This document shows, one piece after another, positions 3,177 through 17,389 of a stretch of DNA of 25,892 nucleotides (positions are counted from its first letter, which is position 1; every line of letters starts with the position of its first letter). Position numbers and translations under genes: made by a program. This DNA comes from a virus. The stretch covers positions 1 through 25,892 of the IMG/VR virus record IMGVR_UViG_3300046522_000596; one strand, 5' to 3'. The notes beneath the pieces were generated by a model that saw only the letters and a program-made list of their open reading frames with translations, did not search any database and was not told the origin of the DNA.

Positions 3177-4208
3177 TCACTTAGTTGGTGAGACTTTCTT
3201 GCCCTTGCGGTTGCGGATGTACTGCTCCGTCATAACAACGGTGGTATGCCCAAGTTGATCCTTGGCCTGCATGATGTCGCCACTGGATTCTGCTTTGTCT
3301 GTACCGGCCTTTGCGCGCAAATCACGCAATTGGAACTCCGGCTTGGATACTCCCGCGGCCTCCCTGGCCATGTCAAAACGCCTGCGCAACATCGCCACCG
3401 TCATCGGTGCGCCATCTTCTGACACGATCAGCCGCGTCGAGCGGACCTTGTGCCCGGACTTTCGGGACATGATTCGATCAATTAAAACCTTGAGTTCACC
3501 GGTAACCTCGATTCGCCGTTTGGCCTTTGTTTTTCCCTGAAGCACCCAAATTTGGCCGTCGCGGACATCCCGTTCGTCCATCAGTCGAGTGTCGGTCACT
3601 CGCTGTCCGGTCAAATAGGCAAGGTCCATGGCGTCTTGAAGGCCGATATCGGCTTTTTCGTGAACGCGCTTGAACAGTTCATCCTCGACGTATGTGTCCC
3701 GCCCAGTCTCTTTATTGCCCTTGATTCCAGCGCAGGGGTTGGCCAGAGACGTGTAGCCCTTGTCCCTGGCGTAGTTCCAAATTGCGCTGAGCAGTGCCTT
3801 TTCACGATTCGCCCTGACCGGAGCCGCCTTCCGCCAGGTGAGGTACTGCCTTACATGAAGCGGCTCGATCGTTTCCAGTGGCGCCGGCGGATCATCGAAG
3901 AACGCAATCAGGTTCTTCATTTCCCGTTTGTTGTCTAACTGGGTGGCTTTGCCTTTGGTGGGGACGATGTCGACCATGTACTTTTCGGCGACGTAACGGA
4001 AGGTGATCACCTTGGCGACCAAGTCGGTCGCGGTCCGATCACGCTCAAACTTTGCGTACTCCATGATCGCCAAGCCATAGTCGCTGCCCAGCGGAATCTC
4101 TTTGCGGTCCTTTCCGCCAGTGTCGTAGTAGTAGAAAACCCGGCCGCTGGCTTTCTTGCGCTCTCGCAGCCGGGCTATAGAACCGGGTTTACTTGGTCGT
4201 CTTCCCAT
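3177..4208 (-). CDS. int: Tyrosine-type phage integrase
   Basis: A 343-residue site-specific recombinase that would join phage and tRNA-Leu DNA. The catalytic domain fills the second half: Arg203 in YLTGQRVTD, basic strand KTKAKRRIEV near 226-235 for the Lys, Arg298 in FQLRDLRAKAG, His321 in QLGHTT, and the nucleophile Tyr330 in TEQYIR. The His usual in the second box (HxxR) is replaced by Arg295. The N-terminal 70 residues are a likely arm-binding domain and 70-165 a SAM-like core-binding domain. The gene ends 83 bp from the tRNA-Leu CCA end. Its ATG follows the DUF4224 stop with one base between, so the two are coupled. Confidence 0.95.
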   Translation of the reverse strand: MGRRPSKPGSIARLRERKKASGRVFYYYDTGGKDRKEIPLGSDYGLAIMEYAKFERDRTATDLVAKVITFRYVAEKYMVDIVPTKGKATQLDNKREMKNLIAFFDDPPAPLETIEPLHVRQYLTWRKAAPVRANREKALLSAIWNYARDKGYTSLANPCAGIKGNKETGRDTYVEDELFKRVHEKADIGLQDAMDLAYLTGQRVTDTRLMDERDVRDGQIWVLQGKTKAKRRIEVTGELKVLIDRIMSRKSGHKVRSTRLIVSEDGAPMTVAMLRRRFDMAREAAGVSKPEFQLRDLRAKAGTDKAESSGDIMQAKDQLGHTTVVMTEQYIRNRKGKKVSPTK

Positions 4209-4696: not shown

Positions 4697-4714
4697 CCGT
4701 TCACCGGCAGGCTG
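4697..4714 (+). repeat. 18-bp direct repeat, copy 1 (left of excalibur gene)
   Basis: CCGTTCACCGGCAGGCTG, identical to the copy at 5072-5089. The similarity continues a little to the right (TATGTGG versus GTAGGTGG). The two copies bracket the rightward excalibur gene. Confidence 0.9.
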
Positions 4715-4780
4715 TATGTGGATTAATGGGATACGCTGGAAAGCAGGCGACGTGAGAATGCAAACGATCTCTCATCACGG

Positions 4781-5071
4781 ATGAATCAAATGAAACTGAT
4801 TTGGTTAGTGCTTGTTGTTGGTCTGTTGGCTTGGAAGTTTTCCCCTGACGTACAGTCATGGACTGAGGCGAGGCTATCGAATCAACAGGTAACCTCCAAA
4901 GTCATGACTGCGCAGAAGCCCGTTGCGGCTCGATTCAAATGTGATGGTCGCAAGCGCTGTTCGCAGATGACCTCATGCGCAGAGGCCAAAAACTTTCTGC
5001 AGAATTGCCCGGGAATGGAAATGGACGGAGACGACGACGGGATACCGTGTGAGACGCAGTGGTGTCGATGA
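4781..5071 (+). CDS. Excalibur-domain secreted or membrane-anchored protein
   Basis: A 96-residue protein with a hydrophobic N-terminal segment (residues about 4-20, LIWLVLVVGLLAWKF) acting as signal anchor, a short linker, and a C-terminal excalibur domain: Cys pairs around CAEAKNFLQNCPG and the calcium-loop motif MDGDDDGIPCE. Excalibur domains are extracytoplasmic calcium-binding modules of unclear job. The gene is rightward, against all its neighbours, and lies between two copies of an 18-bp repeat, so it looks like an inserted accessory gene. No good ribosome site is seen before the ATG at 4781; a second in-frame ATG is at 4790. Confidence 0.85.
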   Translation: MNQMKLIWLVLVVGLLAWKFSPDVQSWTEARLSNQQVTSKVMTAQKPVAARFKCDGRKRCSQMTSCAEAKNFLQNCPGMEMDGDDDGIPCETQWCR

Positions 5072-5089
5072 CCGTTCACCGGCAGGCTG
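5072..5089 (+). repeat. 18-bp direct repeat, copy 2 (right of excalibur gene)
   Basis: Identical to 4697-4714. It starts immediately after the excalibur stop codon and lies 16 bp past the end of the leftward gene at 5106-5390. Confidence 0.9.
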
Positions 5090-5105
5090 GTAGGTGGAAG
5101 AGGGG

Positions 5106-5390
5106 TTAGGCGCCCTTGAACGGGACGACGTTTTCGAGCTCGTGCTTAACGCCGCCGGCATCGCGGAATGCTTTCCACTCGGCGTGGTGGGCGGGGCAGT
5201 AGTCGATGTCGATTCCGACCTTGGCCGAGTGGAAGCCGCAGATCGAGCGATCACAAGTTTTCCCGTTGCCAACCGGGAAGTCGCAAAGGTTCGCCCCGAC
5301 GTCGCCGCACTCAGCGCAATGAGGACCCAGCTTCCCGCACATGAAACCGATCTTTCGTCGGTCTTTGTCGTACATCGAATAACAGGTCAT
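5106..5390 (-). CDS. Cysteine/histidine-rich phage protein, likely zinc-binding
   Basis: The 94-residue product holds nine Cys and several His in spaced groups: C-G-K-L-G-P-H-C-A-E-C near residue 18, C-DFPVGNGKT-C, ICGFH, and YCPAHH near residue 67. These would make one or two zinc sites. No DNA-binding fold is recognised. Its ATG overlaps the stop of the 19-codon ORF upstream (ATGA), so it is read as part of a coupled string. A second ATG five codons in is possible. Function unknown. Confidence 0.7.
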   Translation of the reverse strand: MTCYSMYDKDRRKIGFMCGKLGPHCAECGDVGANLCDFPVGNGKTCDRSICGFHSAKVGIDIDYCPAHHAEWKAFRDAGGVKHELENVVPFKGA

Positions 5391-5446
5391 CGCCGTGGCC
5401 CCGAGTAGATGAGCCAGGCCATGTAGGCGAGGGCGGGGAGGATCAT
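5387..5446 (-). CDS. 19-residue hydrophobic micro-ORF, ATGA-coupled at both ends
   Basis: The reading frame MILPALAYMAWLIYSGPRR fits exactly between two larger genes. Its ATG overlaps the TGA of the gene at 5443-6009 (ATGA at 5443-5446) and its own TGA overlaps the ATG of the gene at 5106-5390 (ATGA at 5387-5390). Residues 2-15 are hydrophobic and could span or enter a membrane; the tail is Arg-Arg. Precise double coupling argues for real translation, though it may only serve to carry ribosomes to the next gene. Confidence 0.55.
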   Translation of the reverse strand: MILPALAYMAWLIYSGPRR

Positions 5447-6009
5447 GGCGTCACCTTTTGGCCGAGGAGCACGTCGGTGACAACCTCCAAGAGCCTGGCA
5501 GGCGACCACTGAAAGCGGTCGAAGTCCGTGTCAGGTTCGATACCGAACCGGCAGGTTGAGTGAGCGCCGGCAGGGTACTCGCCGCGCTTGGCCATGATCG
5601 TGGCCACCCGGCCGTCACCACCTGGCTCAGTACGGTGGTATTCGTAAGCCTGGGTGTTGTAGTCGTTGCCTGCGGTGATGCCGTAGGTTCCGCTTGGCAC
5701 CAGGTCGGCACGTCCGTCCGGAGTCCACGGCCGACCGCCACCAGCTGTCCGCGCGCCTTCGTGCAGGTACAGCACGAACTCGCCGGCGTTATGGCAGACA
5801 ATTTCGAACGAGTGGTTGAATTGCGTGCCGACAATCACCCGCGAGGTGAAGTTGAATCGGTGGTCGTGGATTGCTGAGTGTTCAAAGCAGGCGCGGCGCG
5901 GCAACTCCGGGTGCCAGACGTGCAGCCTCTGATTGCCCTGGAGCTGGACCTGCACAAAGCCGAGGCCGTGCAGGGTGATTTTGTCGGTCATCACGTCATC
6001 GATGATCAT
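5443..6009 (-). CDS. Hypothetical phage protein, possibly cupin-like (188 aa)
   Basis: The start is the ATG at 6007-6009 (MIIDDVMTDKITL), which overlaps the stop of the preceding gene as ATGA; a longer reading to 6117 is a frame extension inside that gene. The product is beta-rich with many His in a pattern like a metal-binding jelly roll (HSAIHDHRFNF, FNHSFEIVCHNAGEF, VLYLHEG), which suggests a cupin-type fold, but I cannot assign a known family. It lies in the middle of a string of ATGA-linked genes (6006-6329, this, 5387-5446, 5106-5390). Confidence 0.65.
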   Translation of the reverse strand: MIIDDVMTDKITLHGLGFVQVQLQGNQRLHVWHPELPRRACFEHSAIHDHRFNFTSRVIVGTQFNHSFEIVCHNAGEFVLYLHEGARTAGGGRPWTPDGRADLVPSGTYGITAGNDYNTQAYEYHRTEPGGDGRVATIMAKRGEYPAGAHSTCRFGIEPDTDFDRFQWSPARLLEVVTDVLLGQKVTP

Positions 6010-6329
6010 GGCGTCACCCGCCGTGCCCACCAGCAAGCCGGGCCGTTGTCGGTGTCGGAAATGGCCAGCACAAACCAACCTTCGCCATCGGGCTTGCTCG
6101 GTTCCCAGTGCGCACAAGAGCCCTCGCCCTGCTCAAAGTACGGGTCGTTGTCGGTATCGACCTCGTATTCCATTTCAGCGGTCACGATGGTCAGGCCCTG
6201 AGCCTTTACCCACTCCCTCGATTCTTCGCCTTGGTCCTCCTCGAACACCGGCAGATCGGGGTGATGCCACCAGCCATCTGCTTCGCGCACAACCGGGACA
6301 GGCTGGATCAAAACGATTTCTTCAGGCAT
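6006..6329 (-). CDS. Acidic hypothetical phage protein (107 aa)
   Basis: A good AAGGAA site stands seven bases before the ATG. The product is strongly acidic and Trp-rich (GWWHHPDLPVFEEDQGEE, EMEYEVDTDNDPYFEQGEG, GWFVLAIS, CWWARRVTP) with no membrane segment or recognised motif. It is first in a coupled string of four leftward genes. Acidic, Trp-rich small phage proteins can be DNA mimics or inhibitors, but nothing here proves that. Confidence 0.65.
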   Translation of the reverse strand: MPEEIVLIQPVPVVREADGWWHHPDLPVFEEDQGEESREWVKAQGLTIVTAEMEYEVDTDNDPYFEQGEGSCAHWEPSKPDGEGWFVLAISDTDNGPACWWARRVTP

Positions 6330-6341
6330 GACTGTTCCTTT

Positions 6342-6355
6342 GCCGCTATAGCGGC
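6342..6355. promoter_or_regulatory. 14-bp perfect palindrome
   Basis: GCCGCTATAGCGGC, just upstream of the ribosome site of the leftward gene at 6006-6329 and before the rightward gene at 6437. It could be an operator. GCTATAGC also occurs at 21215-21222. Confidence 0.35.
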
Positions 6356-6436
6356 TGAGTTTAAAGGGGGAGGGAGTTACAGCGGTGCTTTACTGGTGTA
6401 TTACATGTCGCATATCGCAGTGAAAGGACGCTCAGC

Positions 6437-16005: not shown

Positions 16006-16623
16006 TTAAGCGGCGATGCCGAGCACGCGATTCATGCGCTCTTCGAGGATTTCGTAGAAGGTTTTGACCCGCTCGCTCATCTTGCGAATCATCACTTCGT
16101 CGCGGTAGGCGCGTTTCACGAACAGCTTCATGCCTGGCCAGTAGCTGACGAAGTCGATCCACTCGCGATCCGACACCCACAAGCCGCCCTGGCACTGCGC
16201 GACATGTTCTTTCGGGATATCACCGGAGAGGATCACTTCAACCTGAAACTTCGGCAGTTTGGTTTTGATTTCGCAGAGCCCGTCCTCGCCGATCAGTGAG
16301 TCAGGCGAGTAGCCGATCCCGTGGTTCAGGATGATCCCGACCTGATTCGTGGTGACGTCCACCTGAGATTGATACAGGCCGCGTGCAACACCTTCGTACT
16401 CATGGCCGCGCTCGGTGTGCCGGTTGCCTTGGAACGGGTCGGCAGCCTCACCGGTGATGCGCTCGCCGATCAGCGTATTCATGTAGGTGAACGCGCCAGC
16501 GCCGAAACCCGCTTCGCCCTTACCGTTTACCAGCAGGCTATCCAACTCCGAGCAGGTGACGATGCCCAAGCGCAGATCCAGCCATTCTTGAGTGCCTTGC
16601 TCTACATTACTGATGATTTGCAT
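16006..16623 (-). CDS. YqaJ/lambda-exonuclease-type recombinase nuclease
   Basis: I start at the ATG at 16621-16623 (MQIISNVEQGTQEWLDLRLG), the typical opening QGTxEWLxxRxG of the YqaJ family; a longer frame reads into the annealing-protein gene. The nuclease core is visible: the Asp in YSPDSLIG and the ELK/EIK-type pair in CEIKTKLPKF, with HVAQCQGGLWVS following. It would chew one strand of double-stranded ends and hand the single strand to the ERF protein encoded just upstream, whose 3' end overlaps this start by 17 bases. Confidence 0.9.
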   Translation of the reverse strand: MQIISNVEQGTQEWLDLRLGIVTCSELDSLLVNGKGEAGFGAGAFTYMNTLIGERITGEAADPFQGNRHTERGHEYEGVARGLYQSQVDVTTNQVGIILNHGIGYSPDSLIGEDGLCEIKTKLPKFQVEVILSGDIPKEHVAQCQGGLWVSDREWIDFVSYWPGMKLFVKRAYRDEVMIRKMSERVKTFYEILEERMNRVLGIAA

Positions 16624-17389
16624 CGTCCTTCCCCTCGGTGGTTTTGCTGTTTTGGGTTGCCGACTTGGTGAGCATTGCCAGTACCTGGTCAAACACTGCT
16701 TTCTCGACGGCGGTCGGTGTGCCGTGGATTCCGGCGAATGCGGCTTTCGCTTTGTCGCTGCACTTTTCCAGCAGCATGGCGATCTGCGCAGCCTGGGCGG
16801 ACGTGACTCGCGGCGTTACTTGTGCGCCCGGCCCGTTACCGTCGTCGTCTTCACCAGTCGTGGTGATGTTCAGCAGCAGGCCCGCGGTATACCGCTTGCC
16901 GTAACTGACGCTGGAGGCGACTGCCTGCACGCCGTTCTTGCTGCCGGATGCATCGACTGGCAAAACAATCGATGTCACTTCTCGGTGGCCGGCGCGGTGG
17001 CTCAACACGCCTTCGACCTCGATGCCTCGCTCGTTGCGCGGCGTCCGGAAGGTGATGGCAAAGCCATACTTGGCCATTACCGGCTTGATCATCTCGTTGA
17101 CGTCTTCCCAGAGTGCGTAGGTGCTCTGGATACGGCCGCTCTTGTCCTTGATCCCGCCACGCTCACCGATCACCGGCATTTCTTCCTGCAACTGGGCCAG
17201 GGCGTCGTCGTACTGCTGTTTTGCCTGCTGCGCCTGGAAGCGTTCGTGCATCGCCATCAAGCGTTCCATCTTGTCGATGTCAGCATCCGGCGACATGGCC
17301 ACTTGCTGGATGATCGACATGATGGTGGCTGATTCGGTTTGGATGGCCGGCAAGCGCTCGACCTTTTCTGTCACTGCAAGATTGCTCAT
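16607..17389 (-). CDS. ERF-family single-strand annealing protein
   Basis: The 260-residue product contains the ERF signature region (YALWEDVNEMIKPVMAKYGF, residues about 90-110), followed by a beta-rich part with GHREVTSIVLPVDASGSKN and SVSYGKRYTAGLLLNI. ERF proteins are ring-forming annealers that pair complementary strands during phage recombination. GAGG precedes the ATG. The C-terminal tail is hydrophilic, as usual. It works with the adjacent YqaJ nuclease and SSB as a phage-encoded recombination set. Confidence 0.92.
   Translation of the reverse strand: MSNLAVTEKVERLPAIQTESATIMSIIQQVAMSPDADIDKMERLMAMHERFQAQQAKQQYDDALAQLQEEMPVIGERGGIKDKSGRIQSTYALWEDVNEMIKPVMAKYGFAITFRTPRNERGIEVEGVLSHRAGHREVTSIVLPVDASGSKNGVQAVASSVSYGKRYTAGLLLNITTTGEDDDGNGPGAQVTPRVTSAQAAQIAMLLEKCSDKAKAAFAGIHGTPTAVEKAVFDQVLAMLTKSATQNSKTTEGKDDANHQ

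Follow-up and report, generated by a model that had tools for sequence, protein, structure and literature searches.

A doubly coupled hydrophobic micro-ORF in Pseudomonas temperate phages, probably a micro-gene and perhaps also a constant joint between exchangeable cassettes

The window analysed here is a stretch of viral DNA of 25,892 nucleotides (IMG/VR record IMGVR_UViG_3300046522_000596, positions 1 to 25,892), in which a frame of only 19 codons fills the gap between two larger genes. It raises the question of whether so short a frame is a gene in its own right, or whether it is a by-product of the way in which its neighbours are joined. An earlier note proposed that the frame shares an ATGA with both neighbours, and this is confirmed on the minus strand, from 5446 to 5387. 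The strand was not stated there; the plus strand of 5387-5446 contains no such peptide. The features immediately around the frame are as follows.

5387..5446, minus strand: micro-ORF of 19 codons plus stop, MILPALAYMAWLIYSGPRR, from a reading of the minus-strand frame
5443..5446, minus strand: ATGA, stop of the upstream gene and start of the micro-ORF, from the sequence
5387..5390, minus strand: ATGA, stop of the micro-ORF and start of the downstream gene, from the sequence
5451..5457, minus strand: AAGGTGA, a Shine-Dalgarno-like site of the micro-ORF that lies within the final codons of the upstream gene, from the sequence
5399..5402, minus strand: GGGG, Shine-Dalgarno-like, for the downstream gene, inside codons of the micro-ORF, from the sequence
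5443..6009, minus strand: upstream coupled gene, 188 amino acids from the ATG at 6009, phrog_4784, function unknown (ORF and profile match)
5106..5390, minus strand: downstream coupled gene, 94 amino acids, Cys-rich, function unknown (ORF and profile searches)
6006..6329, minus strand: gene preceding the upstream gene, 107 amino acids, phrog_1372, likewise joined to the next gene by ATGA (ORF and profile match)

In the list of open reading frames the frame of the upstream gene starts earlier, with a TTG at 6117. Phages of Pseudomonas aeruginosa contain distant relatives of this gene (5443-6009) at the DNA level, and it is covered by 36 of the 40 matches listed; some part of a 2.2-kb query around it is matched by 299 records. 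The 94-residue downstream protein (5106-5390) has a Cys-rich core, and shows a weak, below-cut-off likeness to GcrA.

ATGA overlaps are common in phage operons. An ORF of 14-23 codons that runs from ATGA to ATGA between two ORFs of at least 60 codons is found only once on the two strands of the window, against seven in 100 first-order Markov windows (about 0.07 per window). The loci fetched in this work, 3.10 Mb in all, contain 179 doubly coupled ORFs of this size, of which 146 match the family expression. Since these loci were chosen via the motif or its neighbourhood, only the 33 ORFs outside the family expression gauge the background, and one of them, MIALAYMAYLIARRPR, is plainly a family member. 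About 32 unrelated ORFs of this kind in 3.10 Mb are a point in favour of a frame left open by chance between overlapping genes. Against it stand the existence of a family, frame-specific selection, and persistence beside unrelated neighbours, all described below, and we regard chance as so improbable that it can practically be set aside. The idea of a linker present in many copies was ruled out, because a search of the window for a second copy at up to three mismatches gave one match in total.

When the downstream 94-residue protein was used as the query, 23 viral loci and four genome loci were found, the latter in three Pseudomonas records and one Desulfobacteraceae metagenome bin. Of these 27 loci, 15 have a hydrophobic in-frame ORF of 16-21 codons whose end abuts the downstream gene's start or runs into it. 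Several of the 15 are of one contig lineage, yet the upstream gene is of several kinds. At a sixteenth locus, L008, the copy is frameshifted. The micro-ORFs found before relatives of the downstream gene differ by whole codons, for example MIIPVYALAYMASLIYSGPRR, MIALAYMAYLIYRGPR and MIATLWFAYVFIYRMPG. Five further relatives (L006, L007, L019, L021 and L031) have no micro-ORF, while L022-L027 are not informative on its presence, because the tblastn match starts inside the downstream gene.

A scan with the back-translated core pattern returned 112 viral contig stretches, nearly all of them with a family ORF of 15-22 amino acids. The family peptide has the general form M-hydrophobic-aromatic-[RKST]-G-P-R, with a length of 15-22 residues. 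The genes that follow it vary between contigs, and conservation through linkage to the downstream gene, which the loci found with the downstream protein had suggested, was ruled out on the grounds that many unrelated downstream genes occur in these stretches. Deduplication and the inclusion of other loci gave 133 contexts, in 102 of which the micro-ORF overlaps a downstream ORF of at least 40 codons by four bases. The core pattern is present in 21 of 398 genomes of the genus of Pseudomonas lini, against none of 398 for a reversed-pattern control, and in one of 369 genomes of the class, this being the same P. lini genome.

The micro-ORF is also found in the named Pseudomonas phage records PseuP_224, PseuP_222, phiAH14a and SC_8_H2H8_2017. 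No gene is annotated at its position in the first three, and in SC_8_H2H8_2017 the stretch around it bears no annotation whatever. Gene callers tend to discard ORFs of this length. The window peptide plus one Ala gave no profile match in Pfam or PHROGs, and three longer family members gave none in PHROGs or NCBIfam, all of these being short queries of low power. A full-text literature search with six family peptide strings returned no match, and no title or abstract retrieved on the concept describes the micro-gene or the junction; both searches covered few subscription papers.

In order to sample the region by neighbouring DNA, two other constant pieces of it were used as DNA probes, and at least 120 stretches were obtained from each. 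The loci counted are distinct, have at least 1.5 kb upstream, and were not fetched by the peptide pattern. The threshold for calling a copy intact was set from 200 reversed sequences, with a profile built from the mixed set of neighbour-DNA and pattern-fetched loci. Among the matches listed, the micro-ORF is intact in 128 of 172 loci, odd or broken in six, and absent in 38. If pattern-fetched loci that were also returned by the probes are added, the matches listed comprise 154 intact, seven odd and 38 without the micro-ORF out of 199, a count that leaves out nine pattern-fetched rows that could not be placed. The mixed set as a whole has 189 intact, seven odd and 38 without out of 234. The neighbour-DNA sample shows wider variation of the peptide, including MILPLMYMAYLIYRGPR, MIFAPLYMAYLIYKGPWR, MIALAWFAYVYCYKGPR, MILATLFMLQHIYRGPWR and VILPLMFVALHLYRWPR; AWFAYVYCY is one peptide type of the family.

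The earlier note suggested checking whether the frame and its hydrophobic pattern are kept in related phages, and largely they are (128 of 172 intact among the matches listed), which supports its reading of a doubly coupled, putative membrane micropeptide. It also named stops or frameshifts in relatives as the refuting case. These do exist, but as a minority, with six odd or broken copies against 128 intact of 172. Premature stops are found in L230 and L310 and frameshifts in L364 and L008; the end of the micro-ORF is altered in L078 and L335, and the tail is altered in L143 as well. Given the 38 of 172 loci without it and the few broken copies among the matches listed, the micro-ORF is not essential everywhere. 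The broken or altered copies L008, L230, L310, L364, L078 and L335 could be of use as natural controls. If the peptide works, it would represent an overlooked family, present in roughly three in four of the loci sampled (128 of 172 among the matches listed).

Selection was assessed by pN/pS, calculated from equal-length pairs. For the 89 haplotypes free of motif selection, which come from the neighbour-DNA matches listed, the value is 0.55 in frame and rises to 1.03 and 1.12 when the frame is shifted (595, 595 and 581 pairs). Close pairs of the same haplotypes give 0.40 in frame against 0.78 and 1.57 (160, 154 and 150 pairs). The 103 haplotypes of the mixed set, which combine neighbour-DNA loci with loci fetched by the peptide pattern, give 0.46 against 1.05 and 1.29, and all close pairs of this set give 0.28 in frame. 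These mixed-set figures keep 152 of 156 loci, with hydrophobicity and coupling on both sides required and nine non-fitting peptides removed by hand. In distant pairs the value climbs to 0.62-0.70.

The pattern of residues is consistent from one haplotype to the next. Aromatic residues occupy three fixed columns in 82, 82 and 87 of the 89 haplotypes, and only seven of the 89 have D, E, K, R, N or Q in the body of the peptide. In the tail, two basic residues are present in 83 of 103 haplotypes; the Gly-Pro is retained in most, and the Arg is often replaced by Lys, Ser or Thr. Acidic residues are absent in 100 of 103. Single-nucleotide steps are few. In the body, 15 of 32 are synonymous against 26% expected, and 10 are conservative and seven radical, so that nonsynonymous steps show little preference for conservative changes. 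The in-frame pN/pS and the excess of synonymous steps, taken with steps that are not clearly conservative, imply that the protein is selected, but not tightly. By these comparisons, purifying selection on the micro-ORF is frame-specific and moderate.

The nucleotides are also constrained. In the motif-selected set the core codon GCC is found in 125 of 128 contexts against 47% usage, although these counts are conditioned on the search pattern at those very codons. The synonymous difference is 0.13 in the core of the micro-ORF and 0.32 in the neighbours (486 pairs). Synonymous sites of the core are therefore unusually conserved, to which DNA-level constraint or recent spread contributes. The Gly codon of the tail is GGG in 106 of 128 contexts against 11% usage. 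We read the nucleotide constraint as probably a ribosome-binding need at the 3' end, together with recent spread or homogenising exchange in the core. RNA structure was considered as the main driver and rejected, because a hairpin of the Y type, GGCC-CCTG/CAGG-GGCC, has no clear counterpart in the W type, and because the folding scores are small: the mean z against synonymous shuffles is -0.40 for 98 haplotypes with flanks, -0.62 for the 37 of Y type and -0.17 for the 51 of W type.

Coupling is found with nearly all upstream neighbours and with most downstream ones. Among the neighbour-DNA matches listed, 140 of 154 have a coupled upstream frame (four- or one-base overlap) and 135 of 154 a coupled downstream one; of 258 contexts in which the sequence extends far enough, 229 have an ORF of at least 30 codons coupled on the downstream side. 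A duplex energy of -6 or lower is found before the start of the micro-ORF in 87% of 103 contexts. For the sites of the downstream gene in these contexts the figure is 53%, against 8% after synonymous shuffling. The overlaps on both sides, these downstream sites, and the preference for GGG in the tail, as expected for the ribosome-binding site of the next gene, would all be accounted for if the micro-ORF were mainly a translational bridge, over which the ribosome passes from the upstream gene to the following start, with a peptide of no importance. A bridge of this kind would leave unexplained why conservation of the amino acids is frame-specific, and why the aromatic columns are near-constant. 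In addition, 29 of the 258 contexts retain the micro-ORF, its tail altered in L143 and L353, although no downstream ORF of 30 codons or more is coupled to it, which argues against a role as a bridge alone. In L073 it is directly followed by what reads, by eye, as a terminator-like hairpin. We consider it unlikely that bridging is its main role.

Three features further from the micro-ORF are needed for what follows.

3177..4208, minus strand: integrase (phrog_1), downstream of the micro-ORF on the same strand (profile match)
16607-17389, minus strand: Erf-like annealing protein, same strand as the micro-ORF (profile match)
6340..6357, minus strand: constant hairpin element CAGCCGCTATAGCGGCAA, a junction module, with a like module in other loci

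An integrase is found in 136 of 261 micro-ORF contexts. It is downstream in all 136, on the same strand in 131, and at a median distance of 1.33 kb. The micro-ORF thus belongs to the integrase-side end of the operon, as the exo-xis region does in lambda.

Short constant junction modules are a feature of the region as a whole; there are at least six, and five of these can form a hairpin. Several are followed by a ribosome-binding site and a start codon. The genes after them fall into 10-28 clusters per module, and each module has its typical distance to the micro-ORF. A second family of doubly coupled hydrophobic micro-ORFs, of 25-26 codons (MITKCLLGCTLFFWLPLVLTIKAVIG and variants), lies upstream of the 18-codon type in L276, L286, L306, L317 and others, and has no trustworthy profile match in PHROGs or NCBIfam. 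A direct repeat, 4697-4722 and 5072-5098, 93% identical, is found around a gene of opposite orientation (4781-5071, plus strand); this plus-strand cassette looks as if inserted at a duplicated junction module. Finally, GGTGACGCCATGATC occurs exactly at two successive gene junctions, 6004-6018 and 5441-5455, and, with two mismatches allowed, the window has three matches to it where 0.06 would be expected. The junction context itself therefore recurs.

The neighbours of the micro-gene change between phages while the micro-gene stays, a point absent from the earlier note. In 257 contexts, an upstream frame of at least 50 codons ends in the four-base overlap in 231, representing 36 clusters, and there are 213 coupled downstream ORFs of at least 40 codons, in 42 clusters. 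Both neighbours are present in 194 contexts, which comprise 110 distinct upstream-downstream pairings. The clusters were obtained by single-linkage blastp, the largest upstream cluster having 102 of the 231 genes, and chaining means that the diversity of neighbours may be understated. The identities of the upstream and downstream genes are independent in a first set (mutual information z 0.9, n=72) and weakly associated when the set is larger (z 2.4, n=145). Whether a peptide is of Y or W type tracks the upstream cluster (z 16) more than the downstream cluster (z 6.5).

The limits of the conserved stretch are sharp. In 5729 pairs of the motif-selected set with unrelated genes on both sides, identity is at background from the first base past the stop and from about 15 bases before the start, the flanks being unrelated on both sides. 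The conserved unit is therefore the ORF and its ribosome-binding site, and little more. Because the neighbours are swapped on both sides while the micro-gene persists, it forms a constant piece at a cassette junction.

A constant piece of this kind could be a boundary sequence, that is, a short DNA homology kept by recombination for cassette exchange, and coding only in order to spare the operon. This would fit the sharp island between unrelated flanks, the nearly free pairing of partners, the very low synonymous variation in the core, the other short constant junction modules of the region, and the Erf-like annealing protein in the window. However, several of the peptide types clearly differ in DNA and yet keep their residue pattern, which a pure DNA-homology site does not need; the island stops at the stop codon, and selection is frame-specific. 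We therefore find it distinctly unlikely that the micro-ORF is a boundary sequence and nothing else.

The explanation that we favour, at slightly better than even chances, is that the micro-ORF is a real micro-gene of an integrase-proximal operon in Pseudomonas temperate phages, probably membrane-acting, which is also a constant cassette joint. Its basis lies in the sequences. They indicate that the peptides form a widespread family of 15-22 residues, whose body is hydrophobic and rich in aromatic residues and whose tail is short and basic, that most copies have a Shine-Dalgarno-like site before the start, and that the micro-ORF mostly has the four-base overlap with any gene upstream, and usually likewise downstream. 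The hydrophobic body, of about 12-17 residues, is short for a helix that spans the bilayer, so that a position on the membrane surface, or association with a larger membrane protein, would be likelier than a free-standing helix.

We hypothesise that translation is passed on by reinitiation, first from the end of the upstream gene to the micro-ORF and next from the micro-ORF to the downstream gene. The micro-ORF peptide would enter or lie on the inner membrane with its tail in the cytoplasm; during early lytic growth its target there would be a membrane protein of the host or of the phage. Since any partner that arrives at the ATGA would stay coupled, homologous exchange via the short constant stretch may have turned the micro-ORF into a joint. 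We also put forward a further proposal, more tentatively and with less than even confidence. The micro-ORF may be a coding joint, at once a selected micropeptide gene, a universal coupler and the recombination seam of a cassette array. A new gene on ATGA ends would be translated at once, and the role of the peptide, of membrane or nascent-chain kind, would be shared by hundreds of Pseudomonas prophages that are otherwise different. If it is also a joint, the micro-ORF would provide a concrete and testable case of phage gene swapping that does not break the translation of the operon.

It remains to compare this proposed micro-gene with known systems. In the exo-xis region of lambda, orf60a, orf61 and orf63 are described as small, conserved and non-essential, and as lying beside xis; deletions of orf60a and orf61 alter lysogenization and induction (PMC6213356). 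The micro-ORF resembles them in its position before the integrase (136 of 261 contexts, 131 on the same strand). The products of orf60a, orf61 and orf63 are about three times longer than the micro-ORF peptide. The peptide resembles small membrane proteins in having a hydrophobic segment with basic residues at one end, the segment being short for a full span. The Ibs toxins of E. coli have about 19 hydrophobic residues and are encoded by stand-alone genes under antisense control. The micro-ORF is like them in length and hydrophobicity, but differs in being coupled inside an operon.

The tail of the peptide suggests another comparison. The arrest peptides of RAPP/RGPP type (ApdA, ApdP, ApcA and SecM) have an Arg-Ala/Gly-Pro core, which tends to sit near the C-terminus of small secretory or membrane proteins whose genes precede various others (PMC12992588). 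By analogy, the Arg/Lys-Gly/Ala-Pro tail of the micro-ORF peptide might pause the ribosome at its end and so gate the next gene, as a nascent-chain arrest or leader peptide. The tail does resemble that core (PMC12992588), and 81 of the 141 distinct peptides contain [RK][AG]P. None of the 141 has R[AG]PP in full, the Arg being often Lys, Ser or Thr, and the family is therefore not classed as an arrest peptide; the window peptide itself has the tail S-G-P-R-R. Moreover, in 29 of 258 contexts there is no coupled ORF of 30 codons to gate. Arrest is in our view very unlikely to be the explanation.

Closer parallels to the favoured micro-gene are found elsewhere in phage genomes. The boundary (linker) sequences of mosaic lambdoid phages are short conserved stretches between non-homologous genes, proposed as exchange sites, an idea cited in PMC3029335. 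They are like the micro-ORF in that a short conserved element has unrelated sequence on both sides (5729 pairs). The micro-ORF differs in being protein-coding, with frame-specific selection and an island that ends at its own stop codon. The SAS/ESAS of cluster K mycobacteriophages are constant elements, some of them with inverted repeats, found at the translation starts of a variety of genes, and the SAS has 13 bp and 11-19 copies per genome (PMC3203893). They resemble the hairpin modules of the region, and differ from the micro-ORF, which is coding and occurs once in the window. The closest ideas are thus boundary sequences and start-associated sequences, from which the micro-ORF, judged by its pattern of conservation, is set apart as a selected coding gene.
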